Source: Arthrobacter sp.
GTDB lineage: Bacteria > Actinomycetota > Actinomycetes > Actinomycetales > Micrococcaceae
DNA length: 34,295 nucleotides
Assembly (NCBI GenBank): GCA_025464875.1
Contig: JAODMV010000036.1
Coordinates: forward strand, 1-34,295
Direction of reading: 5' to 3'
The notes under the pieces are model-generated. The model worked only from the letters and a program-made list of their open reading frames with translations. It ran no database searches and was not told the origin of the DNA. Below, in pieces: positions 1,794 through 27,475 of this stretch (its first letter is position 1; each line of letters begins with the position of its first letter). Made by a program: the position numbers and the translations under genes.

Positions 1794-5203
<3,410 letters not shown>

Positions 5204-6073
5204 ATGGCTGGTCAAACCGACCAACTGATTAAGCCCGGAAGCGGGCGGGGCCTCCTCGACGTCTACGCCGACAGGTTCCTCCTCAAGCTGCTGGTACGCA
5301 AAGAGATCAAGGTCCGCTACCGCGGGTCAGTGCTGGGGCTCCTGTGGTCGTACGTAAAACCGCTCGTGCAGTTCCTGATCTACTTCGTTGCGCTGGGCGT
5401 CTTCCTGGATCTCCAGCGGGGCACACCCAACTACGCGATCTATCTCTTCGCGGGGATCGTGCTCGTGAATTTTTTCACGGAGTCCTTGTCCAACGCGACG
5501 CGCTCCATCGTGGACAACCGCGATCTCATTCGGAAGATCTACCTGCCACGGGAGCTGTTCCCCGTCGCCACCGTCTGGGTTTCTGCCGCGCATTTCTTTC
5601 CGCAGCTTCTGGTCCTCATCGGCGCCTGTCTTGTGGTGGGCTGGACTCCCTCGATCGTCCAGCTGGCCGCAGTCGTCCTGATCTTCCTGATGGTCGCGGT
5701 GCTCGCCACCGGCCTGGGCCTGCTGTTCGGGGCCATGAACGTTTATTTCCGCGACTCCGAAAACATCGTGGACATGATTGTCATGGTCGTGACGTGGGCC
5801 TCTCCCGTGCTTTACGTCTGGTCCATGGTGGAGCGGGCCATGGGGCCCTGGTTCTGGATCTACCAGCTGAATCCGATGACGGTCGCCGTCGAAGTCTTCC
5901 ATTGGGCCTTCTGGGAGCCGACACTCAAAGCCGAACAGTCCGTGGCCGACGCCATGCCGCCGGAGCTGCTGACCGTATGGCTTCCGGTGTCCGCGCTCAT
6001 CACGCTCGCCGTGCTGTTCCTCGGACAGCTGACCTTCCGCCGGCTTGCCGTCCACTTCGCACAGGAGCTCTGA
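5204..6073 (+). CDS. wzm: ABC-2 type polysaccharide export permease (Wzm-like)
   Basis: 289-aa polytopic protein, LLVRKEIKVRYRGSVLGLLWSYVKPLVQFLIYFVALGVFL; followed directly by its ATPase. Confidence 0.93.
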   Translation: MAGQTDQLIKPGSGRGLLDVYADRFLLKLLVRKEIKVRYRGSVLGLLWSYVKPLVQFLIYFVALGVFLDLQRGTPNYAIYLFAGIVLVNFFTESLSNATRSIVDNRDLIRKIYLPRELFPVATVWVSAAHFFPQLLVLIGACLVVGWTPSIVQLAAVVLIFLMVAVLATGLGLLFGAMNVYFRDSENIVDMIVMVVTWASPVLYVWSMVERAMGPWFWIYQLNPMTVAVEVFHWAFWEPTLKAEQSVADAMPPELLTVWLPVSALITLAVLFLGQLTFRRLAVHFAQEL

Positions 6074-6074
6074 C

Positions 6075-6830
6075 ATGACGTCGCATGGCCAAGTAGCCAT
6101 TCTCTGTACCGATCTCCGCAAGCAGTTTGTCCTGCGCCACACCCGCTCCCTGAAAGAGGCCCTGGTCTGGCTGGTCAAGGGCCGAAAAGGAGATCTGTCC
6201 AAGAAATTCCTGGCGTTGAAGGACGTCTCCCTCGAGGTCAAGCAAGGCGAGACCGTCGCCCTGCTGGGGCTCAACGGTTCGGGCAAGTCCACGCTCCTGA
6301 AGCTCATCTCGGGGGTGCTGCAGCCCGACGGCGGGACCGTGCTCACCCGGGGCCGGGTGGCGGGGCTGATTGAGGTCGGCGCCGGCTTCCACCACGACCT
6401 CAGCGGCCGCGACAATGTGTACCTCAACGGCGCGATCCTCGGCATGACGGAACAGCAGATCGACGAGAAGTTTGACGCCATCGTGGAGTTCTCTGAGATC
6501 GGCGAGTTCATCGACACCGAAGTGAAGTTCTACTCGTCGGGGATGTACCTGCGACTGGCGTTCTCCATCGCGGTGCACACGGATCCGGAAGTCTTCCTGA
6601 TCGACGAGATTCTCGCCGTCGGAGACGAACCGTTCCAGCGCAAGTGCATCGCAAAGATCAAGGAGCTGGCCGACAAGGGAAAGACCCTGTTTGTCGTCAG
6701 CCACGATCTGGACCTAGTCGCGACCGTGTGTGAGCGCGGTGTCCTGCTGGAGCACGGCGAAGTGGTCATGGATGGGGACGTGGACGCCGTCGTCTCGGAG
6801 TTGCGCCGTCGGTCCCTCAGTGAGACCTAG
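6075..6830 (+). CDS. wzt: ABC transporter ATP-binding protein (Wzt-like, no C-terminal carbohydrate-binding extension)
   Basis: Walker A GLNGSGKSTLLK, signature-region YSSGMYLRLAFSIA, Walker B FLIDEILAVGDEPF; ends soon after the NBD (about 251 aa). ATG at 6075 after AGGAG. Confidence 0.93.
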   Translation: MTSHGQVAILCTDLRKQFVLRHTRSLKEALVWLVKGRKGDLSKKFLALKDVSLEVKQGETVALLGLNGSGKSTLLKLISGVLQPDGGTVLTRGRVAGLIEVGAGFHHDLSGRDNVYLNGAILGMTEQQIDEKFDAIVEFSEIGEFIDTEVKFYSSGMYLRLAFSIAVHTDPEVFLIDEILAVGDEPFQRKCIAKIKELADKGKTLFVVSHDLDLVATVCERGVLLEHGEVVMDGDVDAVVSELRRRSLSET

Positions 6831-6922: not shown

Positions 6923-8908
6923 GTGTCCTGGTGGCTGTCTTTGCCAGTGATTTTGCTTGCTGTGCTCGTACTTATCGTGCCCGGCCTCATTCTGTCCCTG
7001 GCCATCCGGATACGAGGCGTGAACTCGCTGCTTCTTGCCCCGGCTTTTACTGTCGGCATGGCTGGAGTCCTGGCCACGCTCTATTCCTTCCTCCATGTTC
7101 CGTGGGGGCCGGCAACTTTCCTCGGGGGAGTACTTGCCGTCTCGGCAGCCGCCTGGGCGATCAGGTACGCGGTCATCCGGAAAAGTCCGGAACCCCAGGC
7201 TGAGCCCCAGCGGCGCTCCCTGGTGCTCGCGGCCGGTCTCGGCGCGCTCGGAGCCGCATTGCTCATTGGGGTTCAGATGGCAACGGCGATGATATCGCCG
7301 GACTCCATCTCTCAGACTTACGACAACGTCTTCCATCTCAACGCCGTCCGCTGGGCGATCGACACACAGGACGCATCGCCGCTCAATCTCGGCGCCTTCA
7401 CCGGGATCAGCGCCTACCCGGCGGGATGGCACGGCCTGGTGTCGCTCGTCGCGGAATTGAGTGGCGCCACGATACCCGTGGCGGTGAACGCCACAAACAT
7501 TGCCATTGGGTCCGTCGTCTGGCCACTCGGCTGCCTCTACCTGGTCCAGGCGGTCGCCGGTCACCGGATTTCGACGACGGTCCTGGCCTTTGTCTTCGCG
7601 GCAGGATTCTCGACCTTCCCCATCCTGATGATCGATTGGGGCGTCCTGTACCCCAACCTTCTGTCCATCTCTGTCCTGCCGGCGGCGATTGGCATGGCGT
7701 TCACCGCGCTGAACCTGGGCCGGCACCACCGGCAAAGTTCCGTGGTTGTCTGGCTGAGCCTGGGGGTGGGCGTCGCGGGCGTTGCGTTGGCGCACCCGAG
7801 TACCCTGATGGCCTTCCTGGCGTTCATGGTCGCCCCGAGCGCGGCCATCTACTACTTCAAGATCCGCAGACTCTGGCCAGCGCGGTCCTCTTCCGAACGG
7901 CGCAGCATTATCTTGCTATCCGCCGCCTTCCTGGGGTGGCTGGTCGGGCTCGGAATCCTCTGGGGATTCCTGCGGCCGCCGGAGGGCTCGGCAGACTGGG
8001 GGACTGTGGAGACGCCACCCCAGGCCATCGGGGAGCTGCTGTTCAATGCCCCACTGGGCCGTCCGGCCCAGGAGGTCATCAGTATCTGCCTCCTCGTCGG
8101 ACTTTGGAAGCTTTGGACGCTCAAGAGCCGACGCTGGCTCATCGGGGTCTACGCCACCGCGGCTATCCTCTTCTTTTTTGCTGCCGGTTATAACGGATCT
8201 CTGCGGCACTTCGTCACCGGTGTCTGGTACTTCGACAGCCACCGTCTTGCTGCCCTTCTGCCGGTGGCGACCATCGCCCCGGCCGTCATCGGGGCGGGCT
8301 ATCTGTTCGATGCGGCCCGCAGGCTTCTCACCCCGACGGGGGAGTCCCGGATACCCGGACTCTTCGGCCTCGTGCGAATGCCGAAATCCGGCAAGGCGGT
8401 CGTCCTCTCCTCGCTGGCGGGCCTGACGGGACTCGTTCTAGTCACGCAGCTCGGCATAACGACCTTCGCCGCCCAGCAGGCGCACTGGCAGTACCGGAGC
8501 ACTGCGCACTCTGCACTTCTTTCCCCCGACGAAAGAAGCATGCTTGAGCGCTTGTCGGCCAAGGTGGAGCCCGGCGCGGCGATTGCCGGACTCCCCAGCA
8601 GCGGCACCGCACTGGCCTACGCCTTCTCCGGGCGAACCGTCATACAGCCCCATATCCTGACGACCCATGGCTCCGACGTGGACGTGGTCAACGCCGGCCT
8701 GAAGGACTCCGCGACTTTCCCCGCTGTCTGTGAGGCAGTCCGCAAGCTCAATGTCAGGTACGTTCTTGACTTTGGCACCCGGACCGTCACCGGAACCCTC
8801 TCCGGCTACGGCGGAGTCATGGACCTGAAGCCCAATGAGAGTCTGGAGCTGATCGACAGCCAGGGCCCGTCCGCGAAGCTGTTCAAGGTGCGCGCCTGCT
8901 GGAACTAG
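6923..8908 (+). CDS. DUF6541-like multi-pass membrane protein, possible GT-C glycosyltransferase
   Basis: 661 aa with many TM segments; first large loop SQTYDNVFHLNAVRWAIDTQDASPLNLGAFTGISAYPAGWHGLVSLVAEL. Confidence 0.75.
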   Translation: MSWWLSLPVILLAVLVLIVPGLILSLAIRIRGVNSLLLAPAFTVGMAGVLATLYSFLHVPWGPATFLGGVLAVSAAAWAIRYAVIRKSPEPQAEPQRRSLVLAAGLGALGAALLIGVQMATAMISPDSISQTYDNVFHLNAVRWAIDTQDASPLNLGAFTGISAYPAGWHGLVSLVAELSGATIPVAVNATNIAIGSVVWPLGCLYLVQAVAGHRISTTVLAFVFAAGFSTFPILMIDWGVLYPNLLSISVLPAAIGMAFTALNLGRHHRQSSVVVWLSLGVGVAGVALAHPSTLMAFLAFMVAPSAAIYYFKIRRLWPARSSSERRSIILLSAAFLGWLVGLGILWGFLRPPEGSADWGTVETPPQAIGELLFNAPLGRPAQEVISICLLVGLWKLWTLKSRRWLIGVYATAAILFFFAAGYNGSLRHFVTGVWYFDSHRLAALLPVATIAPAVIGAGYLFDAARRLLTPTGESRIPGLFGLVRMPKSGKAVVLSSLAGLTGLVLVTQLGITTFAAQQAHWQYRSTAHSALLSPDERSMLERLSAKVEPGAAIAGLPSSGTALAYAFSGRTVIQPHILTTHGSDVDVVNAGLKDSATFPAVCEAVRKLNVRYVLDFGTRTVTGTLSGYGGVMDLKPNESLELIDSQGPSAKLFKVRACWN

Positions 8909-8986: not shown

Positions 8987-9850
8987 ATGCGCGGAATCAT
9001 ACTGGCCGGCGGTACCGGATCTCGGCTCCATCCCATCACCATGGGCATCAGCAAACAGCTCGTACCCGTCTACGACAAGCCGATGATCTACTACCCCCTC
9101 TCCACCCTCATCCTCGCGGGCATCCGCGACATCCTGATCATCACGACGCCCCACGACGAGGAACAGTTTCGGCGGCTCTTGGGAGACGGATCGCGCTTCG
9201 GGGTGAACCTGAGCTACAAGCAGCAGCCCGCTCCGGACGGTCTGGCACAGGCGTTCATTCTCGGGGCATCGCACATCGGCGACGAGAAGGTCGCGCTTGT
9301 CCTCGGCGACAACGTGTTTTACGGGCAGGGGATGGGCACGCAGCTGCGTAAACACTCCAACATCGACGGCGGTGCCGTCTTTGGCTACTGGGTCAAGGAC
9401 CCCGGTGCCTACGGGGTGGTGGAATTCGATGACGCCGGCCGGGCGCTTTCCTTGGAAGAGAAGCCCGCGAAACCCAGGAGCCACTACGCGGTGCCGGGTC
9501 TGTATTTCTACGACAACGAGGTCGTGGAGATCGCCCGGGAGCTAAAGCCCTCGCCCCGGGGCGAACTGGAGATCACCGACATCAACAAGTCGTACCTCGA
9601 GCGCAACAAACTGCACGTGGAGATCCTTCCCCGCGGCACGGCCTGGCTGGACACCGGGACCATTGACGATCTGAACGACGCCTCCAATTTCGTGCGGACC
9701 GTGGAAAACCGCCAGGGCCTGAAGATCGGCGCCCCGGAGGAAATCGCGTGGAGGGTCGGTTTCCTTTCGGACGACGAACTGCGCGACCGTGCCGAGCCGC
9801 TCGTGAAGAGCGGATATGGGGCGTATCTTCTGGGCCTGCTCGACAACTAG
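8987..9850 (+). CDS. rmlA: Glucose-1-phosphate thymidylyltransferase
   Basis: [55 protein letters not shown]; 287 aa. Confidence 0.97.
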
Positions 9851-9959
9851 CATCAAGGCAGCGAGTGCCTAGTCCACGGCTCCGGTGCTTCCCTGGACGC
9901 TTGGTGGCGCCGGGCCGCCGCCACGCGGACCCAAGAACCAAGGACCGGAGACAATACAC

Positions 9960-11276
9960 GTGAACATGGATCCCGCCGAGTCGACCGAGGCCCTGAAAAC
10001 GGGGCGGGGCGGTGCAGCCGCGAAGTCGTCGCGGGGCAGCATCTCCTTCGTGGGGTTGTCCTCGATCTTCGCCGCCGGCAGTGGCTACGCCATTTTCGTC
10101 CTGGCCGCCCGGGTTTTGCCCGTGGATCAGAACGCTGATTTCCTGGCGTTCTGGGGTGTGCTGTTCGGCTTGTTCGGCGTCATGACGGGCCTCATGCACG
10201 AGGCAACGCGAGCCGTGAAGTCGGCTTCGCTCAATGCCCGGCCGAAAGCTGACCGGGGCGCCCGCATCATCGGGTCCTCGGTCCTCATCGGTGCGGTTGT
10301 CGCTCTGGCGGTCGCGCTGAGCGGCACGTGGTGGATGCCCTCGCTGTTCAAATCGTCTACCCCGTTGCTTTCGGTCGGCCTCACCCTGGCCGTGGTGCTC
10401 TACGCCGGCCATGTCGGCCTGGCGGGAACGCTCGGCGGGCGGGAAAGCTGGGGCAGTTATGCTGCCCTGACGACAGCCGAATCCGGTCTCCGTCTCGCCG
10501 CCGTGGCAGCAGTGGCCGTGCTCGGTTTCGGGCTTGGAGGCCTGGAGCTAGCCGCGCTTTCCGGCACCCTCGTTTGGCTGGTGTTCGTTTTCTTGACACC
10601 CCAGGGGCGGGCCGCGCTGGGTCAGCGCGCCGACGTCGGAATGGGTGCCTACCTCCGGCGGTGCGGCTACTCGATGGCGACAGCGGCTTCCAGTGCCGTC
10701 CTCATCACGGGCTTTCCGGCCCTCATCAAACTCATGTCGGATGATGCTGAGTTCGCCCGCGCCGCCCCGCTGCTGCTGGCCGTGTCCCTAACCCGGGCGC
10801 CCATTCTGATCCCGCTGCAGGCGTTCCAAGGTTTGGTCATGACCAAGCTGATGGCTTCTGGACGCCCGCCGCACCGTAACCTTCTTGCGCCGCTGGGCCT
10901 GATCGCCGTCGGCGGCCTGGGAGCCGGACTCCTGGCCGCACTCATCGGCCCGTCGATCATGCTGATTTTCGGACCGGACTACCGCCTGGATGGACTATGG
11001 GTGGGACTCCTGACGGTGGACGCCGCCCTGCTTGCCGTGGTGACGCTGACGGGGACGGCAGCCCTCTCCGCCGGCCGGCATCGGGTCTATCTGGCGGGCT
11101 GGTTCACGGCGACGGCGGTCTCGGTTGCGCTGCTGGCCGTGCCCGCGCCGTTAGACTTGAAAGTGGTCTGCAGCCTTGCGGCAGGTCCCTTGGCCGGTTC
11201 CGCGGTCCATATCTGGGGCCTTTGGGCGGACCGACGTAGGGGCAACCGCTCATCTGCAGAAGAGAAAGGGATCTGA
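9960..11276 (+). CDS. Flippase-like (Wzx/MATE-type) multi-pass membrane protein
   Basis: About 438 aa of regular TM helices in a glycan cluster; GTG start after GGAG (track ORF extends to 9885). Confidence 0.65.
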   Translation: MNMDPAESTEALKTGRGGAAAKSSRGSISFVGLSSIFAAGSGYAIFVLAARVLPVDQNADFLAFWGVLFGLFGVMTGLMHEATRAVKSASLNARPKADRGARIIGSSVLIGAVVALAVALSGTWWMPSLFKSSTPLLSVGLTLAVVLYAGHVGLAGTLGGRESWGSYAALTTAESGLRLAAVAAVAVLGFGLGGLELAALSGTLVWLVFVFLTPQGRAALGQRADVGMGAYLRRCGYSMATAASSAVLITGFPALIKLMSDDAEFARAAPLLLAVSLTRAPILIPLQAFQGLVMTKLMASGRPPHRNLLAPLGLIAVGGLGAGLLAALIGPSIMLIFGPDYRLDGLWVGLLTVDAALLAVVTLTGTAALSAGRHRVYLAGWFTATAVSVALLAVPAPLDLKVVCSLAAGPLAGSAVHIWGLWADRRRGNRSSAEEKGI

Positions 11277-11281
11277 CCAGC

Positions 11282-12280
11282 TTGCTGAATGCTCCGACTA
11301 TTTCCGTGATCATGCCCTCGTACAACGTCGCCTCGACCGTCGTCCGGGCAATCGACAGCGTTCTGGCTCAATCGTATGAAGACTTCGAGCTCCTGATCAT
11401 CAACGACGCCTCCACCGACGATACCGAGGCCGTTGTCCTGGATCGCCTTGCCGCCGTCGAGGACGACAGGCTGCGTCTGATCACCTTGGAGGCCAACGTC
11501 GGCCTGTCCGGCGCCCGGAACGCCGGCCTGGATGCGGCCGCGGGCGAGTTCGTCACCTTCCTCGACGCCGACGACGAGTACCTGCCGCAGTTCCTCCAGA
11601 CGTTGCGCGACGAAATGGTCGGGGAGGTGGACATCGCCATCGCCGGGCACCTGGTAGTTCGCCCTGACGGGTCGCAGGCGCCGCGCCACAGCCGCTTCCT
11701 CGGCGAGTGCTCCGGGGAGCAGGCCATGCGCCACGCGATGTCAGACGGCCTGACCCCGTTCACGTGGGACAAGCTCTACCGGGCTTCGCTTTTCGCCGGC
11801 GTCAGATACCCGGTGGGGTCGACCCGCTTTGAAGACATGACCGTCAACATCATCCTGTATCCCCGGGCGAGGCAGGTCCGTAGCGTTAAGCCCCCGTTGC
11901 ACAGGTACTACATCTCCGCGCAGTCCCTCACCTGGGGGCGCATTCCGACGCGGGCCGACACCGATCTAGCGTTGCGCGACCTCGACGCGCTGCTGCCCCA
12001 GCGGCTCAAGTCCGGAAGTAACGGCAGGTTCTACGCCAACATGAGGCTGCTGATAACCCTGATCACCGCCCAGAGCGCGATCATGAAGGTCAGGAACCAG
12101 CCCGCGGCCCAGGAGACCATTGATGATTGCCGCCGGGCGCTGAGCTACCGGCAAATCGGGCTGGCTGCCTTGACGCGGCCTCCGTTCGCCGCCGCGGCGT
12201 TGCTGCTGAAGGTCTTTCCGCGGCCCTTCGCGGCCCTCTACGTCCGGTACTCCGCCGCCAGTTACGGGCTGACCCAGTAA
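11282..12280 (+). CDS. GT2 family glycosyltransferase
   Basis: PTISVIMPSYNVASTVVRAIDSVLAQSYEDFELLIINDASTDDTEAVV...LSGARNAGLDAAAGEFVTFLDADDEY. Confidence 0.93.
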   Translation: MLNAPTISVIMPSYNVASTVVRAIDSVLAQSYEDFELLIINDASTDDTEAVVLDRLAAVEDDRLRLITLEANVGLSGARNAGLDAAAGEFVTFLDADDEYLPQFLQTLRDEMVGEVDIAIAGHLVVRPDGSQAPRHSRFLGECSGEQAMRHAMSDGLTPFTWDKLYRASLFAGVRYPVGSTRFEDMTVNIILYPRARQVRSVKPPLHRYYISAQSLTWGRIPTRADTDLALRDLDALLPQRLKSGSNGRFYANMRLLITLITAQSAIMKVRNQPAAQETIDDCRRALSYRQIGLAALTRPPFAAAALLLKVFPRPFAALYVRYSAASYGLTQ

Positions 12281-14487: not shown

Positions 14488-15582
14488 GTGTCCCAAACCA
14501 GTAGTGCCCTTCGCCCCGGAGGCACCGTAATCGTCACAGGCGGTGCGGGCTTCATCGGCTGCGCGATCTCCCCAGCGCTTGTTGAAAATTTTGACCGTGT
14601 GGTCGTTGTCGACAACCTGCACCCCCAGATCCACTCGAGCGGATCCCGCCCGGCAGAACTCGCTGCTGGCGCGGAACTGGTGGTCGCCGATATCACCCTC
14701 CCCGAAACCTGGGACAAGGTTCTCCAGGATGTCGAACCCGACGTCGTGATCCATCTGGCCGCCGAAACCGGCACCGGGCAGTCCCTCGAAGAGTCGACGC
14801 GGCACGCGCACGTCAACGTCGTCGGCACCACGCAGCTGCTCGACGGGCTCAACCGGAGCGGCCGGCTGCCCCGGCGCATCGTGCTGTCATCCAGCCGAGC
14901 CGTGTACGGCGAGGGAGCATGGCGCAGGCAGGACGGATCGCTTTTCCATCCCGGACAGCGCACGAGCGAAACGCTGGACCTGGCGCAGTGGGACTTCCCT
15001 GACGCCGAGCCGACTGCCATGAAGGCCTCCGAGACGTTCCCGGCGCCGGCGAGCGTGTACGGCGCAACGAAGCTGGCGCAGGAGAATATCCTGCAGACCT
15101 GGGCCAACGCCTATGGGGTCGAGACCGCCATCCTCCGCCTCCAGAACGTCTACGGTCCCGGACAGTCGCTCATCAACCCGTACACCGGCATCATGAGCCT
15201 GTTCTGCCGCATGGCCAAGAGCGGCAAGTCCATCCCGCTCTACGAGGACGGCAACGTCCGCCGCGACTTCATCCTGATTGACGATATCGCCTCGGCGATC
15301 GTCGCAGCGGCCGTTTCGGCCGACGTGTCGAAGGAGCCGTTGGACATCGGATCGGGCGAGTTCCAGACCATCGGCACTGCCGCGCGCCTGATCGCCGAGC
15401 ACTACGGGGCGCCGGAGCCCCACGTCAGCGGCCAGTACCGGCAGGGCGATGTCCGCCATGCCTGGGCGGACATCGAGGCGGCCCAGCGTGTCCTGGGCTG
15501 GACCCCCAAGGTCCACCTGGCCGAGGGGATCGAACGACTCGCCACCTGGATTGACGAACAGCCGGACGTGCAGCCCGCCTGA
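14488..15582 (+). CDS. NAD(P)-dependent nucleotide-sugar epimerase/dehydratase (extended SDR)
   Basis: [14 protein letters not shown] (GxxGxxG), SSSRAVYGEG, YGATK catalytic motif, RLQNVYGPGQSLINPYTGI; GTG start 14488. Confidence 0.92.
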   Translation: MSQTSSALRPGGTVIVTGGAGFIGCAISPALVENFDRVVVVDNLHPQIHSSGSRPAELAAGAELVVADITLPETWDKVLQDVEPDVVIHLAAETGTGQSLEESTRHAHVNVVGTTQLLDGLNRSGRLPRRIVLSSSRAVYGEGAWRRQDGSLFHPGQRTSETLDLAQWDFPDAEPTAMKASETFPAPASVYGATKLAQENILQTWANAYGVETAILRLQNVYGPGQSLINPYTGIMSLFCRMAKSGKSIPLYEDGNVRRDFILIDDIASAIVAAAVSADVSKEPLDIGSGEFQTIGTAARLIAEHYGAPEPHVSGQYRQGDVRHAWADIEAAQRVLGWTPKVHLAEGIERLATWIDEQPDVQPA

Positions 15583-15595
15583 TCTCACCGATGCA

Positions 15596-15634
15596 AAAAG
15601 GGGGCAGCCGCTGGTGCGGCTGCCCCCTTTTTTT
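15596..15634. terminator. Strong, probably bidirectional intrinsic terminator between convergent genes
   Basis: AAAAGGGGGCAGCCG-ctggtg-CGGCTGCCCCCTTTTTTT; 15-bp arms with T-tracts on both strands. Confidence 0.93.
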
Positions 15635-15685
15635 GGCATCTCAGGAACCGGGCGGGATGCCGGCCAAGGCCGGCAACTCGGTTTG

Positions 15686-16174
15686 TCAGTCGTCGACGGG
15701 TCCAAGCAAGGGTTCCAGCAAGTTCCAAGTCTCGGTGTTGCAGGAGTTGTCCTGGCGGAAGCTGTTCCGCACGGACCGGTCGTTGACGGCGCCGAAGACA
15801 TCGGCAATGTCCTGGTTCCCGGTTCCCAGGCACTTGTCGTCCGACTTGGCCAGGTCGCGAACCAGCACCTCCGGCGACGTCGCTACGACCTCGCAGGCCT
15901 CGTCTCCGCCCGGAAAATCTGTTCCTGCCACGGCCGAGGATCCAACGCACACAAGGTGCCGGGTCGCGGCGGGGGCTGCGTTCGACGGCAGCAGGCTCAC
16001 GGTCAGCCGGACGTCAGGAGTGGCAGTGGCCGCCGGGTACGTCGGTGGGGCCGTCGATGTTGCAGTGGCTTTGGGCGTCACCGTGGGACGTTCCTGCGGA
16101 TTGTCGAAGCTGCAGGCGGTCAATAGGGCGGTCATAGCAACGAGGACAATCGTTGCCGGCAGAACGGGTCGCAT
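15686..16174 (-). CDS. Small lipoprotein with SSI (subtilisin inhibitor)-like cysteine pattern
   Basis: MRPVLPATIVLVAMTALLTACSFDN lipobox (LTAC); P/T/A-rich linker; domain with four Cys; AAGGAG RBS upstream of ATG 16174 (-). Confidence 0.8.
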   Translation of the reverse strand: MRPVLPATIVLVAMTALLTACSFDNPQERPTVTPKATATSTAPPTYPAATATPDVRLTVSLLPSNAAPAATRHLVCVGSSAVAGTDFPGGDEACEVVATSPEVLVRDLAKSDDKCLGTGNQDIADVFGAVNDRSVRNSFRQDNSCNTETWNLLEPLLGPVDD

Positions 16175-16310
16175 GATGCTCCTTGGCAGATGTACAAGCC
16201 TCTACGTTACCGGATCTGCACAGGCAGCCCGGGAGTGGACGGTGCTCGGCGATGTCCCGGGCGGACTGATCAAGCTGACTGCTGGCCAACCTGGCCGGGT
16301 GGCCAGATAG

Positions 16311-17318
<1,008 letters not shown>

Positions 17319-17321
17319 AAG

Positions 17322-18749
17322 ATGTCGATCGAGTTCTCGAAGAAGCTCACAGCCCACGAGACCGCCATTCCCGGCGTCGTCCTCTACGACCTTCCCGTCC
17401 ACGGCGACAACCGCGGTTGGTTCAAGGAGAACTGGCAGCGGGAAAAGATGGTGGCGCTGGGCCTGCCGGACTTCCGCCCGGTGCAGAACAACATCTCCTT
17501 CAACGAGAAGACAGGCACCACCCGGGGGATCCATGCCGAGCCCTGGGACAAGTTCATTTCCGTGGCCACGGGCCGGATCTTCGGTGCCTGGGTTGACCTC
17601 CGTGAGGGCCCCTCGTTCGGCGCGGTGTTCACCGCCGAGCTGGACCCCAGCCAGGCCATCTTCATCCCACGCGGGGTGGGCAACGCGTTCCAGACGCTGG
17701 AAGACAACACCGCCTACACCTACCTGGTCAACGACCACTGGTCCGCCGACGCCCAGGGCCAATACACCTTCTTGAACCTGGCGGACGAGACGGCGGCCAT
17801 CGCGTGGCCGATACCGCTGGAACAGGCTGAGCTATCAGACAAGGACAAGGCGCATCCGCGGCTCGCGGACGTTGTGCCGATGCCGCCGAAGAAAACCCTC
17901 GTCGTCGGCGCCAATGGCCAGCTGGGCACCGCGCTGCGGGAACTGTACGACGGCGACCCCTCCGTCGAGTTCGCCGGCCGTGCGGAGTTCGATCTGGGCA
18001 GTGAGGCGTCCTTCACCGCAACGAACTGGAAGAACTACTCCACGATCATCAACGCGGCCGCCTACACCGCCGTCGACACAGCCGAAACGCCGGAAGGGCG
18101 CCTTGCCGCCTGGCAGACCAACGTCACGGCCGTCGCCCGCCTGGCCCGGATCGCCGTCGAACACGACCTCACCCTGGTCCATGTCTCCTCGGACTACGTT
18201 TTCGACGGTACTCAGGCGGTCCATACCGAGGATGAGCCGTTGTCGCCGCTCGGCGTGTATGGCCAGACCAAGGCCGCCGGGGACGCCGTCGTCAGCGTGG
18301 TCCCGCGCCATTACATCGTGCGCACCAGCTGGGTCATCGGTGCGGGCAACAACTTCGTCCGGACCATGGCATCGCTGGCAGGCCGGGGGATTGAGCCCTC
18401 GGTCGTGAACGACCAGGTGGGGCGCCTGAGCTTCACCGCGGACATCGCCGCCGGGATCCGGCACCTGCTGGACACGGTCGCGCCCTATGGCACCTACAAC
18501 CTCAGCAATGACGGGCAACCCCAGTCCTGGGCCGACATCGCCGCCGAGGTCTATGAGCTGACGGGTAAGCCAAGGGCGGCCGTGACGGGGGTCAGCACCG
18601 CGGAGTACTTCAAGAACAAGCCGGCTGCCCCCAGGCCACTGAACAGCGCTCTCGACCTTGGCAAGTTGGCGGCCCAGGGATTCCAGCCTCGGAACGCGGC
18701 AGCGGCACTGGCAGCTTATGTGCGTGAACCCCACTCCCAGAGCGAATAG
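17322..18749 (+). CDS. rmlCD: RmlC-RmlD fusion: dTDP-4-dehydrorhamnose 3,5-epimerase / reductase
   Basis: Cupin RmlC-like half (TTRGIHAEPWDKFISVATGRIFGAWVDLREGPSFG) runs into an RmlD half (KKTLVVGANGQLGTALRELYDGD...HVSSDYVFDGTQ...YGQTKAAGD) in one 475-aa ORF. Confidence 0.95.
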   Translation: MSIEFSKKLTAHETAIPGVVLYDLPVHGDNRGWFKENWQREKMVALGLPDFRPVQNNISFNEKTGTTRGIHAEPWDKFISVATGRIFGAWVDLREGPSFGAVFTAELDPSQAIFIPRGVGNAFQTLEDNTAYTYLVNDHWSADAQGQYTFLNLADETAAIAWPIPLEQAELSDKDKAHPRLADVVPMPPKKTLVVGANGQLGTALRELYDGDPSVEFAGRAEFDLGSEASFTATNWKNYSTIINAAAYTAVDTAETPEGRLAAWQTNVTAVARLARIAVEHDLTLVHVSSDYVFDGTQAVHTEDEPLSPLGVYGQTKAAGDAVVSVVPRHYIVRTSWVIGAGNNFVRTMASLAGRGIEPSVVNDQVGRLSFTADIAAGIRHLLDTVAPYGTYNLSNDGQPQSWADIAAEVYELTGKPRAAVTGVSTAEYFKNKPAAPRPLNSALDLGKLAAQGFQPRNAAAALAAYVREPHSQSE

Positions 18750-18936: not shown

Positions 18937-21156
18937 TTGCATAGGCTAAAAATCGCCGGCGTGCAATTTCCGACGGGTATGCAGAGGTTAAGAACATCCC
19001 GCAGGATTATCGGATCCGGCCTGGCGGCAATGCTCTTTGTCGCCACGGTCGGCGTTCTGCCCGCATCAGCGGCACCGGTGGACCAGGATCCGGCTCCGAT
19101 CCCTCCGCCGGTGTCGGACCTGATCCCCAAGGTCCCCGGAACACCGGTGAAGCGATCCACCGAGGCCGCCCAGGCACAGGCTGCAGGGCCGATCGCCGTG
19201 ACACTCGTGACCGTGCAGCTCGCCGACAAGTCCCTGCAGGACTTCAATTCGATGTCCCTTGACGCTGCACGGAACTCGATATCGTCGGCTGACTCCTATT
19301 GGGGTTCCACAAGCAACGGCCGGATATCCATGAGCGTTGCCCGCACTGTCGCCGGGCACCAATCGGCCGCCCGGTCGACGGATTCGTTCGAAGTGATGAT
19401 GGGGACGATCAGCAGGGAGCTGCGGTGGTCCTACGGGGCAAACCAAGTCCTGGTGGCCTTTGTCCCGAACGCGGACCTCAACTACCAGGGCACGGCAGGT
19501 ATTCAAGGCGGGGGATGGTCGAGCGGAAATAACGGTGGCCGCATCCTCATGCCGAAGCCGGGGGGACTGACGAACAGCGTGGTCAGCCACGAGTTCGGCC
19601 ACGTCTTCGGCTTGATGCACGCGAACAGCCTGCAGTGCACCAACGGAAAATCGGACGTGGCACGCACCAGCTACGAAACGTGGGCTGACAGAGCGTGCAC
19701 CTCCCGGGAGTACGGTGACAGCACCGACATCATGGGCGTGAGCCAGTATGCAATGCCGGCACTGAACGCGGCCCTGTTCGATTTCGGAGGATTCGGGCGC
19801 GGAGACGAGATCATCAACCTTGGCAAGGTCGAAGGGAAAAACAGTTTCACCCTCACAGCATGGGCCAGCCAGGCACCACGACGGGCGCTGAAGTTCACCG
19901 ATCCGACGAGCGGCGAAGTCTACTTCGTACAGGTTCGCCTGCCCGTGGGACAGGACGCCTCGACGGCGGCTGGAGGCAACAAGGGCGTCGAGTTCCTGAA
20001 AGCCGATCTTGATTCCGGCGGTTCAGCCTCCCTGTTGATTCCGCCGTCCACATTGCCCTTTCTGGGCTGGTACAACAAGAACCACGCCTGGCAGGCAGGA
20101 AGCGCCTTCACCACTGAAGGCGGAACACGTGTTTCCGTCAACTGGATCTCCGGCTCCGCGGCCAACGTGACCGTTACCGAGCCGCCGTCGAGCGCTGCGC
20201 AAATCCGCGCTGCGGCGGCACTGCACCCCGAATTGGGGGCCCCGACGTCCGGGATCGTTGAGGGTCTCAAGGACGGCGGCCAGTACCAGACGTTCCAAAA
20301 CGGTGCTGTAATCTGGTCGCCGAAGACCGGAGCGCACGCCTCGCAGGGGCTCAGGGGAGTGTGGCAGAAGTACGGCCTTGAAAATGGGCGGCTTGGCTAC
20401 CCGCTGACGGATGAATACCCGAGCGGAAACGGCGGCGTCACCCAGGACTACCAGGGCGGCGCCATCACATGGTCGCCCTCGGCCGGGGCCCATGCATTGA
20501 TGGGGGCCATCGTAGGCAAGCACCGGGCCTTCGGCGGCGCCAGCGGAACGCTGGGTTATCCCCGGACCGATGAAATAAACGGCATCAAGGACAACGGCTC
20601 CTACCAAGAGTTCGAACGCGGTGTCATCCACTGGAGCCCAGCGACAGGCGCTCGTGTCTCCCAGGGCGAGATCCGCTGGGCTTGGGGCGGCTCCGGCTAT
20701 GAGTCGGGCATGCTGGGTTATCCGGCCAGCGACGCTTCATGCGGTCGACTCAACGGCGGCTGCCTCCAGTGGTACCAGCGAGGATCCATCATGTGGTCTC
20801 CGAAAACCGGCGCCCGCATTCTCACCGGCGGGATCGCCGGCACCTGGTACGGGATGGGAGCCGAGGGCAGCGCCCTCGGCTATCCGACCAGCAACGAAGC
20901 AGGCGGCCTGAAGAACGGCGGTGTCTACCAGATGTTCCAGAACGGGGCGATCGTGTGGTCACCCACAACTGGCTCCTGGGCTTCCAAGGGACCGATCCGC
21001 GGCGCATGGGCGAAGCTCGGCTTTGAAAACGGCCGCCTCGGTTACCCCGTGTCGAGCGAATACTCCATCGGTGCCGGGGCGACAGAGCAGAAGTTCCAGG
21101 GCGGAACCATCAAATGGCTTCCCTGGTGGAACGACGTCGCCATTAGCTACAAGTAA
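18937..21156 (+). CDS. Secreted metzincin (M11/gametolysin-like) metalloprotease with six LGFP repeats
   Basis: TTG start after AAGGGG; Sec-type signal (RRIIGSGLAAMLFVATVGVLPASAAP); HEFGHVFGLMH at 19588-19620; YGDSTDIMG Met-turn near 19726-19737; C-terminal LGAPTS/LGYPLT/LGYPRT/LGYPAS/LGYPTS/LGYPVS repeats. Confidence 0.88.
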   Translation: MHRLKIAGVQFPTGMQRLRTSRRIIGSGLAAMLFVATVGVLPASAAPVDQDPAPIPPPVSDLIPKVPGTPVKRSTEAAQAQAAGPIAVTLVTVQLADKSLQDFNSMSLDAARNSISSADSYWGSTSNGRISMSVARTVAGHQSAARSTDSFEVMMGTISRELRWSYGANQVLVAFVPNADLNYQGTAGIQGGGWSSGNNGGRILMPKPGGLTNSVVSHEFGHVFGLMHANSLQCTNGKSDVARTSYETWADRACTSREYGDSTDIMGVSQYAMPALNAALFDFGGFGRGDEIINLGKVEGKNSFTLTAWASQAPRRALKFTDPTSGEVYFVQVRLPVGQDASTAAGGNKGVEFLKADLDSGGSASLLIPPSTLPFLGWYNKNHAWQAGSAFTTEGGTRVSVNWISGSAANVTVTEPPSSAAQIRAAAALHPELGAPTSGIVEGLKDGGQYQTFQNGAVIWSPKTGAHASQGLRGVWQKYGLENGRLGYPLTDEYPSGNGGVTQDYQGGAITWSPSAGAHALMGAIVGKHRAFGGASGTLGYPRTDEINGIKDNGSYQEFERGVIHWSPATGARVSQGEIRWAWGGSGYESGMLGYPASDASCGRLNGGCLQWYQRGSIMWSPKTGARILTGGIAGTWYGMGAEGSALGYPTSNEAGGLKNGGVYQMFQNGAIVWSPTTGSWASKGPIRGAWAKLGFENGRLGYPVSSEYSIGAGATEQKFQGGTIKWLPWWNDVAISYK
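20221..21120 (+). repeat. Six tandem LGFP-type repeats in the metalloprotease
   Basis: Repeating [LGYP..]-[..GG.YQ.FQ.GAI.WSP.TGA]-[G.IR..W...G.E.G] units, about 50 aa each. Confidence 0.9.
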
Positions 21157-21324: not shown

Positions 21325-22497
21325 ATGCCGAGCAGTACTGACCGCAGCGGATTGTTGTTCGGATCGAAGCTCAATCCGCGACGGAACAGCCTGAATCTCA
21401 TCCGGCTCGTTCTGGCTCTCGCGGTCCTTGTCCATCACAGCTGGCCGCTGATGGGGCTCGGCAATGAACCAAAATTTGCCGGAGAGTCCCTGGGCGGCTG
21501 GGCGGTCGCCGGGTTCTTCAGCATCAGCGGCTACCTGATTACGGGTAGCCGCTTCAGCAATCGGCTCGGTGACTTTCTCCTCCACCGCGTTGCCCGCATC
21601 ATGCCGGCCTTCCTGGTGTGCCTCGTGGTCATGGTTGCAGTTATTGCCCCGCTGGGACACGTGGCCACGAAGGGCACGCTGAGGGGCTATTTCTCCACCG
21701 GCACGACTCCGTTGGATTATTTGTTCTCAAATATGTTCTTGAAGGTCCAGCATTACGACATTGCTGGCGGGCCGTATGACGTTCCGTATCCGGGCGCCTG
21801 GAATGGGTCCCTATGGTCCTTGTACTACGAGTTCGTTTGCTACCTGATTATTGCCGCGTTCGCCTTGTTCGCGATCGTCAAGAAGTCACCCTGGCCCGTG
21901 ACCCTTGCCTTTGCCGCCAGCATCCTTGTGCAGGCGAATATCGAGCGGGTTAGCGTCTTCATGGGCCAGAACTTCGATTTCGTGCTCCTGATGCGGCTCC
22001 TGCCGTTCTTCCTCGGTGGCGCGGTGGTGTTCGTGTGGCGTCACAGAGTCGGGCTCCACTGGATCCCCGGGGTTCTGTCTATCCTCGCGTCCTTGGTCAT
22101 TGTTTCGGCCTTCCCAGGGTGGGGCGGTCCGGCCTCCGGAGCCTTCGTGGCGTACGCCTTCCTCTGGATCTCGTCCTGGCTGCCCAGCCCCGAGTTCATT
22201 CACCGCAACGACATTTCCTATGGGGTGTACATCTACGCCTTCCCCATCCAGCAGCTGCTGGCCGTCTACGGCCTTCATCGGCTTGGCCTGGTGCCCTACA
22301 CGGTCGCGGCCACGGTCATCACGATCGGCCTGGCACTCGCCAGCTGGTTTATTGTCGAGCAGCCGGTCATGAATCGGGTTCGGAAGCCAAAGCCCAAGCA
22401 GCCAGCCCCCTCGGCTGAATCAGCGTCTGCACCGAACCTTCAACCGGTGGCTCCGGCACCGCTTGAAGCAGCCGCCTCCGCCTCCGGCAACAGATGA
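21325..22497 (+). CDS. Acyltransferase-3 (OafA/YrhL-like) membrane O-acyltransferase
   Basis: RRNSLNLIRLVLALAVLVHHSWPLMG...FFSISGYLITGSRFSNRLGDFLLHRVARIMPAFLVCL; SLWSLYYEFVCYLI. Confidence 0.93.
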   Translation: MPSSTDRSGLLFGSKLNPRRNSLNLIRLVLALAVLVHHSWPLMGLGNEPKFAGESLGGWAVAGFFSISGYLITGSRFSNRLGDFLLHRVARIMPAFLVCLVVMVAVIAPLGHVATKGTLRGYFSTGTTPLDYLFSNMFLKVQHYDIAGGPYDVPYPGAWNGSLWSLYYEFVCYLIIAAFALFAIVKKSPWPVTLAFAASILVQANIERVSVFMGQNFDFVLLMRLLPFFLGGAVVFVWRHRVGLHWIPGVLSILASLVIVSAFPGWGGPASGAFVAYAFLWISSWLPSPEFIHRNDISYGVYIYAFPIQQLLAVYGLHRLGLVPYTVAATVITIGLALASWFIVEQPVMNRVRKPKPKQPAPSAESASAPNLQPVAPAPLEAAASASGNR

Positions 22498-24533
22498 GCG
22501 ACCTAAGCGGGGAAGCCGTGACCGCCACGGACGCCGGACTGAGGCAGCGGGTCCGACGAGACTCTCCTCGCAAGGATGCGCCGGGCTCCGATCGACACCG
22601 GCACGGCGCATCGCGTGCCCGCCGCGTCGCGCGGGCCGCGATTGTGGCTGCCGCCATTCTGCTCGCAGTGGTGGCCGGACGGGTCCTCGGAAGTGCAGGC
22701 GGATTCGCTGTCCTGGCGCTCTCGGGGATTCTGCTGTTGGCCGTACCTACGGCTCGTTCTTTTTCGCGTCGGGTGCTCATCGCCTTGACGATTGTTTTTG
22801 GGGTTGCACCGGTTCTGTGGTGGATTCCGTTTCCTCTTCCAACTCTCGGACGAGCCACTTTCCTGCTTGCAGTGACCGCAGCCGGGCTGGGGGCCTGGGT
22901 AGCGTACGGACGGGATCCGCGGTCAAGGCTGCGCCGGCTCATCCCGCAGATGCGGCTCATCGACTCGCTTCCGTTGATCGTCGCCTTGATGTCCGCCGGA
23001 ACGCTCATCAATTTCCTCAAGGCCAGGACGGCAAGCGATGCAATGACGCTGCTGGCCATGAGCTGGGACAATGCATCGCATTTTGACATGTACTACATGT
23101 TGCGGACGCACGGCCAGATTATCGGGGCCCTGGGCAATTCGCCTGATGGAAGCGCATGGCACTTCTACAACTACCCGCAGGGCTTCCATTCCACGGTGGC
23201 CCTGCTGGCCGAACTGGTCAGGGGGCCGCTCACGGCTGACCTTGGCGGGGAACTGGTCAGCTACACGATACTGAGCGCCGTTGCCGCCATCATGGCGGTC
23301 ACCCTCGTCGCTGCCGCCCTGTGTTCCCTTCCTTTGTTCCGGCGCAGCTTCAGCGTTGCTGCCCCGGTGGTCGTCTTCGTGTCTGCAGGGTGGATCTATG
23401 GCCCCGGCGCCGCCGCCACGATGCACGGTTTTCAGAACTTCTACGTCGCGGTAGCACTTGTTGCTGCGTTCTTGGTGCTGATGGTGCTCCAGGTGCGGCT
23501 CTTCCAGCCCCTCACCCTCGTTGCCGCGGTGGCCGCCGCCGTCGGTGTGGCGCATAACTGGGTTCTACTGGGCACACTCCTCATTGGAGCCTGCGCCATT
23601 CTCGTCATTCCGTGGAACCGTCGACGCTGGGCCGGGTCCCGCCGCAATTATCTTCTGGCAGCCGGTACCGCCATCTTCGCGATCCTCGCTCTCCTTCCTG
23701 CCCTGCGCCAGTTGTCGTCCATCTCGGCCGATGACGTGCTGTATGCCGTGGGCGGGGTTCCCGCACCGGACTATGGCAGAGCGGCGGCCATCGTAATTGG
23801 TGCCCTCGGGGTGAGCCTGCTGGCCGGTGCGAGGAGCAGGAACCGGGACTTCACATCTACTGTCCGCCAAACCGACCGGATGGCGGCCGGGGCGTGGACG
23901 GTCGTAGCCGGTCTCATTGTGGTCGTGTTCATGGCTGTTGCCCAGATCTCGAAGTCCGGGGCGTTGTCCTACTACTCGATCAAGTACGTTCTCGCCCTTG
24001 AACTCATTGCACTGGTGGTCTTAGCGATGGGTGTGGTCAGCCTCCTCGGCGCGGCCCCCGCCGGACGCCTCAGGACCTCATGGCGGGGCATCCTTGCCAC
24101 GCTGCTCCTGATGGCGGCCGTAACGCAGGGATTCGGCCTGACGCTCGATACCAGATCGATAGGGCTGACGCCGAGTTCGACGTCGGCGCTTGAGTTCGAG
24201 AAGCAGCAGAAGGCGCTGGACGCACCCGTGCCGAGGCATGTGGCGGCCCTGCTGACGGCGGTGGAATCCAACGGCGGCGCACCCGCTGCGTACCTGACGA
24301 CGTACGGGAAGGAATTTGACGCCATCCTGGCTTACCAGTGGTACGAAGGATTGACCCGGACGTACACGGAGAAGTCGGCAGCGTTAATGCCACACCTTTT
24401 CCCGCTGTGGTCCGGAGTCGAGGGCCTGCAACCCGTTGTCAAGGCGTTGAGGGAAGCGGAGCCAACCCTGAAAATCATCGTCGATCCCCATGACGAGGAG
24501 CTTTTGCGCCGGATACTGGGGGATGCGCGATAG
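22494..24533 (+). CDS. DUF6541-like multi-pass membrane protein (second copy), possible GT-C glycosyltransferase
   Basis: 679 aa, many TM helices; MSWDNASHFDMYYMLRTHGQIIGALGNSPDGSAWHFYNYPQGFHSTVALLAEL parallels the loop in 6923..8908; ATGA overlap with the acyltransferase. Confidence 0.72.
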   Translation: MSDLSGEAVTATDAGLRQRVRRDSPRKDAPGSDRHRHGASRARRVARAAIVAAAILLAVVAGRVLGSAGGFAVLALSGILLLAVPTARSFSRRVLIALTIVFGVAPVLWWIPFPLPTLGRATFLLAVTAAGLGAWVAYGRDPRSRLRRLIPQMRLIDSLPLIVALMSAGTLINFLKARTASDAMTLLAMSWDNASHFDMYYMLRTHGQIIGALGNSPDGSAWHFYNYPQGFHSTVALLAELVRGPLTADLGGELVSYTILSAVAAIMAVTLVAAALCSLPLFRRSFSVAAPVVVFVSAGWIYGPGAAATMHGFQNFYVAVALVAAFLVLMVLQVRLFQPLTLVAAVAAAVGVAHNWVLLGTLLIGACAILVIPWNRRRWAGSRRNYLLAAGTAIFAILALLPALRQLSSISADDVLYAVGGVPAPDYGRAAAIVIGALGVSLLAGARSRNRDFTSTVRQTDRMAAGAWTVVAGLIVVVFMAVAQISKSGALSYYSIKYVLALELIALVVLAMGVVSLLGAAPAGRLRTSWRGILATLLLMAAVTQGFGLTLDTRSIGLTPSSTSALEFEKQQKALDAPVPRHVAALLTAVESNGGAPAAYLTTYGKEFDAILAYQWYEGLTRTYTEKSAALMPHLFPLWSGVEGLQPVVKALREAEPTLKIIVDPHDEELLRRILGDAR

Positions 24534-24699: not shown

Positions 24700-25317
24700 T
24701 CAGAGGTTCGCCGCTCGGGCGAGCTTCAGCATGGAGTCCTTGCCGGTGGCGTGGTCCCAGGCGCTAGCGTGGGGTAGGGCCACGATGAGCCTGGTTACCC
24801 GCGCCCCGTCCACGGAAACCAGCACGAATTCCGTGGAATCGCTCAGTGCCATCATCGAGTACTTTGCCGGGTGCTGCAGTCCCGGCACGTCCTCAGGGGC
24901 GTCCAACAGGGCGTAGGGGTTGGCCCGGGCGACTTCCTGCCCGCTTGGGTAGGTGATGATCTGTACCGTCAGCGCGTTCGTCGTGGCACCGCCGGGATCG
25001 AAAGCGTGAATGCATGAATCGTAAACGACGCCGTCTGCCGTGCGCTCCGCGTCCGGCTGCGCCGGCTGCAGCGAAGCTGCGACCGTGCCCAGGGACGCCT
25101 GGATTGCTGGGCCGTCCAGGAGTCCACAGGCTACCGACGCGCTGGTCGGCAGCACGGTTCTCCCGTCCCTGGCCGTCTCCGGCGCAGCCGGGGCGGATGA
25201 TGAGCCCGGGGAACTGGCGTCAGCGCTGCCCTGTTGCGAGGTACATCCGGAGACCAGGACCGCCACGACGGCTGCCGCCGACACGAACGTCCCGAGCCTC
25301 GGCCTAACGGAAGACAT
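24700..25317 (-). CDS. Lipoprotein, DUF3558-like
   Basis: MSSVRPRLGTFVSAAAVVAVLVSGCTSQQG lipobox; SVACGLLDGPAIQASLG...DSCIHAF. The track ORF from 25452 includes an unlikely N-terminal extension overlapping the upstream gene. Confidence 0.75.
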   Translation of the reverse strand: MSSVRPRLGTFVSAAAVVAVLVSGCTSQQGSADASSPGSSSAPAAPETARDGRTVLPTSASVACGLLDGPAIQASLGTVAASLQPAQPDAERTADGVVYDSCIHAFDPGGATTNALTVQIITYPSGQEVARANPYALLDAPEDVPGLQHPAKYSMMALSDSTEFVLVSVDGARVTRLIVALPHASAWDHATGKDSMLKLARAANL

Positions 25318-27262
25318 CGGCGTCCACTCCCATGATGAGGCGGTCGCCAGGTGCCGCAGAGCGCAGGTAACGGATGACGTCGCTCTCAGCCAGTGCGATG
25401 CATCCCCAGGTTCCGACGGGGTTGGCATGGAGGAAGATCGCGAATCCGGCATTCATCGTAATGGGGGCGTCAGGCGGCCTGTTGTAGTTGATGACAGCCC
25501 CCTGACGGTAGTCGCCCTGTCTACGAGTAGCGTAGTACCACATGTTTTCGTCCGGGAAGATGTCCGCCGAGGATTCGAAGTACTTGTTGTAGTTCGAATT
25601 CAGGCGGCCGCCCCAGCGGGAATATGGGTTGAGCGTCCGGTACGGAAGCGCCGTGCCGGGGTTCGATAGCCCAAACGCCTCAGTGACGCTGAAAGACCCT
25701 GTGGGCGAGAACTTTCCGGTGGTAGGACCCGTGGCGACGCCCGGGCGGGCGAACCCGCTTTCCCCATCCGCTCCCCGCGCCGCCCATTCGAGCGAATATC
25801 CCCAGGACTGGCGGACACAGTTGACGAAGTTGACAGAGGTGGAACCGTAACTCTGGGCGACGGCGAAGCTGACCCGCGCGGCCCCCGCATGGGGGTACTT
25901 GGCCGCTCCACGGCCGAGTGAGGCGCAGTAGCCCCACGGTGAGATCGAGGAGCTCAGGGCACCGCGTGAGGACCAGGTGTACGTGCCGTACTGGAATTCC
26001 TGGCGGCAGGATCCGGCCCAGCAGGACTCGTCGGCGACGGGGTACCCGAGAGCGCTTGAGGGGCCGCCCCGCTGCCGGTAGCCGTTGTAGAAGGCCCCGG
26101 AAATGGCATGCGTGCCGGCGCTGGCGGCGTAGTAGATCGCCCCGCCCTGGAAGGCCTGCTGGCATCCTCCGGCGGCCAGACCACACTTCTCGGTTTCAAC
26201 CGGATATCCGAGCGCACCGTTCTCCGCTCCCAAGGCTGACCAGCGCGCAAGGATGGCGTTCATGACGGGGTTCGTTCCCACGCCCGGCGCGTAGAAGATG
26301 CCGCCGTTCTGGAACGTCTGCACGCACCCGCCGGCGGCGAGGCCGCAGCGCTCAATGCCGGTCGGGTATCCGAGCGCGCCGTTTTCGGCTCCGAGCCCGG
26401 TCCACCGCGCGAGGATGGCGTTCATGACCGGGTTGGTCCCGACGCCGGGAACGTAATACATCGCACCCCACTGGAACGGCTGCATGCACGCACCGTTCCT
26501 CAGGCCGCACTTCTCGACACCGGTCGGATATCCCAACGGTCCGGTTTCGGCGCCAAGGCCTGTCCATCTGGCAGCGATACCGTTCCAGACTTCGAACGTT
26601 CCGCTGTTCGGCACGTAGTACACGGCGCCGCCCTGGAAGGTCTGGCGGCATCCTCCGCCGCTGAGGCCGCATTTCTCTTCGTTTGTCGGGTAGCCCAGTC
26701 CGCCCTTGAGGCTCCCGAGCTGTGCCCACCGCAGGGCAATGGTGCCGCGAACTGACTTGGCGCCGAGGGCCGACGACCAGGCAATCGATCCCTTAGCAAA
26801 TTCACCATGACAGCCGTCCGCGGCGAGGCCGCACGCGATCGCGCCCTGGGCGGCGCCGAGAACTCCCGTCTCGCCGCCCAGTTCCAGCCACCGGGCCTTG
26901 ATGGCCTGCTCACCCGCGGTCGGCTGCCCCGCTGCGGCTTCGGACGATACTTCCGGTTCCGCGGGCAGGGTGGCCGACGGCGCCGGGCCCGCTGTCGGGG
27001 CCGGATCCGTTCCTGGATCCTCAGACGGCAGAGGCGCCGGCGTTGGCTGCGGGGACGCCGAGGTCGCTGCGGACGGCTGGGGGGTCGGCGTTTCAGTGCC
27101 GGCATCCGTGCCGGACGAGGATGATGTGCCGCTAGGAGTGGGTGAAGGCTCGGCCCCCGGCGGAGCGGGGAGGGCCAGGGCCTGTACCCCCATGGACGTT
27201 GTCAACGCAACGGCCAATAAGGCCGTCAGAAGTGGGCGAGTCCACTTTAGTGTTCTGTTCAT
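25304..27262 (-). CDS. Secreted L,D-transpeptidase-family protein with six N-terminal LGFP repeats
   Basis: Signal MNRTLKWTRPLLTALLAVALTTSMGVQALA; S/T/P/E-rich linker; LGFP repeats; C-terminal YkuD-like domain INYNRPPDAPITMNAGFAIFLHANPVGTWGCIALAESDVIRYLRSAAPGDRLIMG. Preferred ATG at 27262 (track ORF starts at 27310). Confidence 0.85.
   Translation of the reverse strand: MNRTLKWTRPLLTALLAVALTTSMGVQALALPAPPGAEPSPTPSGTSSSSGTDAGTETPTPQPSAATSASPQPTPAPLPSEDPGTDPAPTAGPAPSATLPAEPEVSSEAAAGQPTAGEQAIKARWLELGGETGVLGAAQGAIACGLAADGCHGEFAKGSIAWSSALGAKSVRGTIALRWAQLGSLKGGLGYPTNEEKCGLSGGGCRQTFQGGAVYYVPNSGTFEVWNGIAARWTGLGAETGPLGYPTGVEKCGLRNGACMQPFQWGAMYYVPGVGTNPVMNAILARWTGLGAENGALGYPTGIERCGLAAGGCVQTFQNGGIFYAPGVGTNPVMNAILARWSALGAENGALGYPVETEKCGLAAGGCQQAFQGGAIYYAASAGTHAISGAFYNGYRQRGGPSSALGYPVADESCWAGSCRQEFQYGTYTWSSRGALSSSISPWGYCASLGRGAAKYPHAGAARVSFAVAQSYGSTSVNFVNCVRQSWGYSLEWAARGADGESGFARPGVATGPTTGKFSPTGSFSVTEAFGLSNPGTALPYRTLNPYSRWGGRLNSNYNKYFESSADIFPDENMWYYATRRQGDYRQGAVINYNRPPDAPITMNAGFAIFLHANPVGTWGCIALAESDVIRYLRSAAPGDRLIMGVDADVFR
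25950..26900 (-). repeat. Six LGFP-type repeats, most with a C-x6-C pair
   Basis: LGAAQG, LGYPTN, LGYPTG, LGYPTG, LGYPVE, LGYPVA units; two adjacent 54-aa (162-nt) units are almost identical. Confidence 0.9.
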
Positions 27263-27475
27263 TTTTCTTTCCCCAGCATTTTTGGCATTACTCGTGAAGC
27301 CTAGCCGCATGCCTCCGCCTACCGGCTATTGAGACGAAATCCGTTGTTGGATCGTTGCCAGTTTCCGGACTTTCTCGCAGCGCAATTCCAGCGGTCTGGA
27401 TTTCTTTATGAGCGGCGCACAAATGCCGGGCGGCCCCGGCCGCACGACGACCTGGATTCAAGGGTTAAGACCACG

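Follow-up and report, generated by a model that had tools for sequence, protein, structure and literature searches.

An SSI-like lipoprotein encoded in a galactan/rhamnose locus of Micrococcaceae: a candidate accessory of surface-polysaccharide assembly

Introduction

Proteins of the Streptomyces subtilisin inhibitor (SSI) family are textbook protease inhibitors. In the true SSI sequences compared here, the P1-equivalent, taken as the second residue after the third cysteine (Cys3), is Lys (5 sequences), Met (5), Arg (3) or Leu (1), and among 14 SSI sequences fetched by PF00720, most of them from a single genus with large genomes that resembles Streptomyces, the commonest cysteine spacing is 15/21/30. 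A sequence-only reading of the DNA studied here noted that SSI also inhibits some metalloproteases, and this is correct, as the SSI-family protein sermetstatin has been solved bound to snapalysin (PDB 4hx3).

Homologs of the SSI-like protein described below occur widely in the Micrococcaceae (phmmer, E ≤ 0.001, in 215 of the 398 genomes of this bacterial family). Most SSI-like proteins of the family carry a lipobox, and the genome under study encodes a second SSI-like lipoprotein, here called the canonical paralog. The idea in the sequence-only reading that a lipoprotein form is unusual for this family was therefore rejected, the lipobox being the rule among relatives.

The window, i.e. the whole stretch of 34,295 nucleotides that was analysed, encodes a diverged member of this group within a surface-polysaccharide locus. 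A literature search found no description of an SSI-lipoprotein like it. The reading preferred here, with a probability of roughly 0.6, is that an SSI-fold lipoprotein has been neofunctionalised as an extracytoplasmic accessory of polysaccharide assembly.

Gene and protein organization

The features of the window are listed in Table 1. The coordinates of the open reading frame were confirmed, with an ATG start, and the lipobox proposed from the sequence alone is present, its cysteine (Cys21) being invariant in the ortholog alignment. The codon-position GC content (0.64/0.54/0.77) is similar to that of the neighbouring genes. With dN/dS values of 0.11 and 0.14 in two close ortholog pairs, the gene is under purifying selection. 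The window protein and its orthologs (the window subgroup) keep the four cysteines and 26 invariant columns over three genera.

A simple promoter/terminator consensus scan found nothing and missed the hairpin at 15590-15640. As this hairpin isolates the gene from the epimerase operon, the SSI-lipoprotein gene forms a separate transcription unit in the window. Co-operonic expression in the window was rejected on the basis of the strong bidirectional hairpin before the epimerase and the divergent orientation of rmlB.

Table 1. Features of the SSI-lipoprotein gene and its surroundings in the window
Feature	Position	Strand	Basis
glf, GlfT2-type galactofuranosyltransferase and ABC exporter (wzm/wzt), galactan part	1854..6830	+	Pfam
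Membrane protein of Wzx/MATE fold and likely flippase for glycolipids; candidate functional neighbour	9885..11276	+	Foldseek, low-confidence model
Family 2 glycosyltransferase (GT2a), beside the flippase in all SSI-lipoprotein loci	11282..12280	+	Locus comparison
NAD-dependent epimerase of the locus	14488..15582	+	Pfam PF01370
Bidirectional terminator hairpin, SSI-lipoprotein gene versus epimerase operon	15590..15640	.	MFE -42 kcal/mol on either strand, z -7.8 and -8.7
SSI-superfamily lipoprotein gene, divergent, 162 aa	15686..16174	-	ORF
SSI-like domain, residues 55-158, Cys 76/94/115/145	15701..16012	-	hhalign E 2.3e-24 versus canonical lipoproteins; Foldseek
Strand ADVFG, without variation in the subgroup; canonical relatives have ATVTG	15791..15805	-	Alignment
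CLGTGNQD, at the place of the SSI reactive-site loop; Gly117 as P1-equivalent	15809..15832	-	Entropy, residue comparison
Signal peptide and lipobox LTAC, Cys21 predicted to be lipidated	16112..16174	-	Read in sequence
Ribosome-binding site AAGGAG	16179..16184	-	Read in sequence
rmlB and rmlC-rmlD fusion	16320..18749	+	Pfam

Relationship to SSI and predicted fold

On its own, the window protein matched no Pfam family at E values up to 10, not reaching the gathering score of PF00720, and gave no meaningful match against NCBIfam or PDB sequences. The canonical paralog of the same genome (G000:C366:7089-7637) passes PF00720 with 27.5 bits against a threshold of 23.9. Profile comparison with hhalign provides a chain from the window subgroup to the canonical Micrococcaceae SSI-like lipoproteins (E 2.3e-24), from these to the Streptomyces YGGP-type secreted proteins (E 8.8e-32) and, as the last link, to true SSI (E 1.1e-18). 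Compared directly with true SSI, the window subgroup gives a probability of 55-84% (E 1e-4 to 7e-6), and reversed alignments used as controls stay below 0.3%. Maximum-likelihood phylogeny places the window protein together with nine orthologs in a single clade (support 100/99), whose stem is long (1.48 changes per site) and which is nested inside the Micrococcaceae SSI-lipoprotein clade (support 100/97). Based on these comparisons, the SSI-like domain first suggested by the sequence-only reading is borne out, and the protein belongs almost certainly to the SSI superfamily by descent.

The cysteines C76, C94, C115 and C145 are spaced 18/21/30. The earlier observation that the second and third spacings equal those of SSI, with a first loop three residues longer, is thus accurate. 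The nearest relatives, the Micrococcaceae SSI-like lipoproteins, have spacings of 18/19-21/31, so the exact match of 30 probably reflects a separate one-residue deletion and is not the strongest sign of kinship. The best evidence for this kinship comes from the profile comparison.

An AF2 model built from a four-sequence input has low confidence (pLDDT 56.6, pTM 0.44) and shows the element order beta-beta-alpha-beta-beta-alpha. When this low-confidence model was used in Foldseek, the top 13 matches were all SSI, sermetstatin or SSTI, with probabilities of 0.63-0.98 and an E value of about 0.03.

The canonical paralog belongs to a conserved gene block that also includes MarR, lysC and recR (names other than the subtilase were assigned by eye), and a large subtilase was present in this block in 8 of the 13 other loci compared. 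This neighbouring subtilase agrees with the canonical form acting as an inhibitor, and it is against this context that the window group is conspicuous for its move to another locus and its lost loop. In the genome under study, the conserved stretch G000:C366:2241-7637 holds the SSI-lipoprotein gene, a gene of 358 aa, a signal-less SSI-like gene and a subtilase of 1119 aa. The signal-less SSI-like protein (123 aa, G000:C366:5751-6122, minus strand) has the YGGP loop, keeps Cys3 and Cys4, lacks Cys1 and Cys2, and is possibly an intracellular SSI relative; similar copies were seen at two other loci.

Reactive-site loop

The loop following Cys3 indeed reads CLGTGNQD in the window protein. The P1-equivalent is Met (7), Glu (1) or Phe (1) in the YGGP-type proteins and Gln (11), Met (7) or Glu (3) in the canonical lipoproteins. 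Among the 10 window-subgroup sequences it is Gly (4), Asp (4), Ala (1) or Glu (1), never Met, Leu, Lys or Arg. For subtilisin-, trypsin- and chymotrypsin-like enzymes, a standard-mechanism inhibitor with Gly or Asp at P1 is a poor fit. None of the 10 sequences compared has the CTxxYGGP loop, the conserved loop Tyr and the YGGP/YDP motif being gone from the subgroup.

Conservation has shifted as well. In canonical relatives, the seven positions that follow Cys3 rank with the best-conserved parts of the domain (entropy 0.69 versus 1.63). In the window subgroup they are variable (1.66 versus 1.18), and 7 of the 65 seven-column stretches of its domain equal or exceed the loop in variability. The next eight residues, containing ADVFG, are conserved in the subgroup (entropy 0.52), which has also newly fixed L62, N65, V82, D125, F127, R136 and N146.

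Since the P1-equivalent is now Gly, Asp, Ala or Glu and the conservation of the loop has disappeared, classical inhibition has probably been lost in the window protein. The sequence-only reading expected an altered specificity: the reactive-site residues have changed as it said, yet for the same reasons loss seems likelier than inhibition with merely a new specificity.

Locus conservation and distribution

Orthologs were found in 10 other genomes, giving 11 copies in total over three genera. One of them, at L099 about 9241-9730 (genome G287), is broken by two frameshifts, representing either a pseudogene or an assembly error. The subgroup is rare, occurring in 4 of 206 genomes of the genus, where the bit score falls from 229 to 85 between the subgroup and the next homolog. 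In a second genus, 5 of 23 genomes have an ortholog (E ≤ 1e-25) and one more has the broken copy; in a third genus, one genome has an ortholog. A pattern search based on a tighter sequence set gave Arthrobacter sp. Soil762, Arthrobacter sp. Alg241-R88 and Pseudarthrobacter sp. H3Y2-7 as named carriers.

All 11 copies are located inside one and the same galactan/rhamnose polysaccharide locus despite rearrangements, so the placement of the gene in such a locus by the sequence-only reading extends to every ortholog. The shared content includes glf, a GlfT2-type transferase, an ABC exporter, rmlA/B/CD, GT2 genes and an epimerase. Position and orientation of the SSI-lipoprotein gene within the locus vary: in the window its neighbours are the epimerase gene and rmlB, in three genus-mates they are rmlA and a DUF6541 gene, and in the other genera they are the flippase gene on one side and rmlB or an adjoining GH25 gene on the other. 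Since 15 matched loci exist without the gene, it is an accessory rather than a core part of the locus. A role of the protein in this polysaccharide locus is quite likely.

Several further observations concern the layout of the window. rmlC and rmlD form a single fused ORF (17322-18749), and two large DUF6541-related membrane proteins (6923-8908 and 22494-24533; one strong and one marginal Pfam match) flank the locus. LGFP repeats are fused to three secreted enzymes around it, i.e. a metzincin, a YkuD-type L,D-transpeptidase and a GH25 muramidase (18937-21156, 25304-27310 and 27476-29581).

The comparison set consisted of 26 loci in which the GT2 gene at 13577 has a close ortholog. Flippase and GT2a genes occur together in 11 of 11 loci with the SSI-lipoprotein gene versus 5 of 15 without it (Fisher p 7e-4, uncorrected for kinship). 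In six loci, the most plausible flippase start is about 0-9 nt from the SSI-lipoprotein stop, e.g. TAGTG; in the window and the three genus-mates the two genes do not adjoin. With 12 homologs, the flippase gave no meaningful Pfam, NCBIfam or PDB sequence match, and a Foldseek search with its low-confidence model matched MATE, WzxE and MurJ structures with probability 1.0. It is a likely glycolipid flippase of an uncatalogued family.

Proposed role and alternative explanations

The preferred reading, an accessory of polysaccharide assembly, would start from an outer-face SSI-like lipoprotein gene of Micrococcaceae that was copied and then diverged rapidly, the diverged copy settling in the galactan/rhamnose surface-polysaccharide locus. 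Cys21 and a flexible linker would anchor the protein in the outer leaflet, displaying a disulfide-braced SSI fold. With the inhibitor tip lost, the conserved surface would now consist of the ADVFG strand, L62, N65, R136 and the N143-x-C-N146 turn, and the protein would most likely bind a polysaccharide-assembly component outside the membrane. The leading candidate partner would be the Wzx/MATE-fold flippase or its glycolipid handling. A direct partnership with the flippase is possible. A bolder reading, less likely than not, is that the former protease-inhibitor fold now serves a Wzx-type polysaccharide flippase outside the cytoplasm, as its dedicated partner or regulator, when actinobacteria assemble their cell-wall glycans. 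Counting against the accessory reading are the matched loci that do without the gene, its separation from the flippase gene in the window and the three genus-mates, and the seven domain stretches no less variable than the loop. No small SSI-fold lipoprotein partner of a Wzx flippase was found in a literature search.

The protein might instead still be a membrane-tethered protease inhibitor of unusual specificity, shielding envelope or polysaccharide-assembly proteins from own or foreign proteases. Its SSI ancestry, four cysteines and modelled fold have been kept, its own genome codes for four subtilases and four trypsin-family matches, and several genomes have a subtilase gene close to the canonical paralog. 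Loop variability could then mirror target diversity, as a fast-evolving loop can also mark an inhibitor in an arms race. However, P1-equivalents of G, D, A and E in place of the K/M/R/L of SSI, the missing loop Tyr and YGGP/YDP, and the fact that no protease gene is conserved nearby in the locus make this unlikely. The sequence-only reading had paired the protein with the metzincin-LGFP protein (18937-21156), which does show the HExxHxxGxxH motif and a Reprolysin_3 match and for which the sermetstatin/snapalysin complex would be a precedent. This pairing was rejected: the two genes are 2.8 kb apart with rmlB and rmlCD between them, and the metzincin catalytic domain was found in none of the 10 other genomes with an ortholog, in which the SSI-lipoprotein is kept under purifying selection without it. 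A specific inhibitor of this metzincin is hence hardly credible.

A decoy or inhibitor directed against a non-protease envelope attacker, for example a glycan hydrolase of phage or bacteriocin origin or a muramidase, might travel with its receptor polysaccharide locus. The scattered occurrence among genomes (4 of 206 in the genus, 5-6 of 23 in the second), the surface-polysaccharide setting and a variable loop on a conserved lipoprotein scaffold would suit this. It is nevertheless improbable, as a structure search against a viral structure library gave no match and the tight coupling to the flippase gene fits biosynthesis better than defence. Finally, the lost loop and the frameshifted L099 ortholog could suggest a decaying inhibitor paralog whose function is gone. 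This is very improbable given the low dN/dS, the retained cysteines and invariant columns over three genera and the newly fixed positions.

If correct, the accessory reading would show clearly that a fold of protease inhibitors can be put to new use in envelope biogenesis. It would also advise caution against annotating such SSI-like lipoproteins as inhibitors, and it offers actinobacterial Wzx-type export a candidate accessory that can be tested.

Comparison with known systems

With the PF00720 family (SSI, sermetstatin, SSTI), the window protein has in common the cysteine pattern, the beta-beta-alpha-beta-beta-alpha order of the model and a distant profile similarity. It differs in having no Pfam match, a lipobox for membrane anchoring, Gly as P1-equivalent and a polysaccharide-locus setting, and it has a C-terminal helix where SSI has an end strand. 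It is closer to the Micrococcaceae SSI-like lipoproteins, with which it shares the lipobox, the linker, a single SSI domain, four cysteines and a C-terminal W-x6-LLG helix. These relatives keep the CTxxYGGP loop, whereas the window subgroup has lost it, and their genes lie in the lysC-recR...subtilase block or elsewhere, whereas those of the window subgroup lie in the polysaccharide locus. That a protein of SSI fold can bind a metzincin is known from the sermetstatin-snapalysin complex; here, in contrast, the inhibitor-like gene and the nearby metzincin gene are not conserved together. As to the Wzx/MurJ/MATE flippases of the MOP superfamily (WzxE, 9g9o), the same fold is predicted by the model for the membrane protein encoded beside SSI-lipoprotein orthologs.
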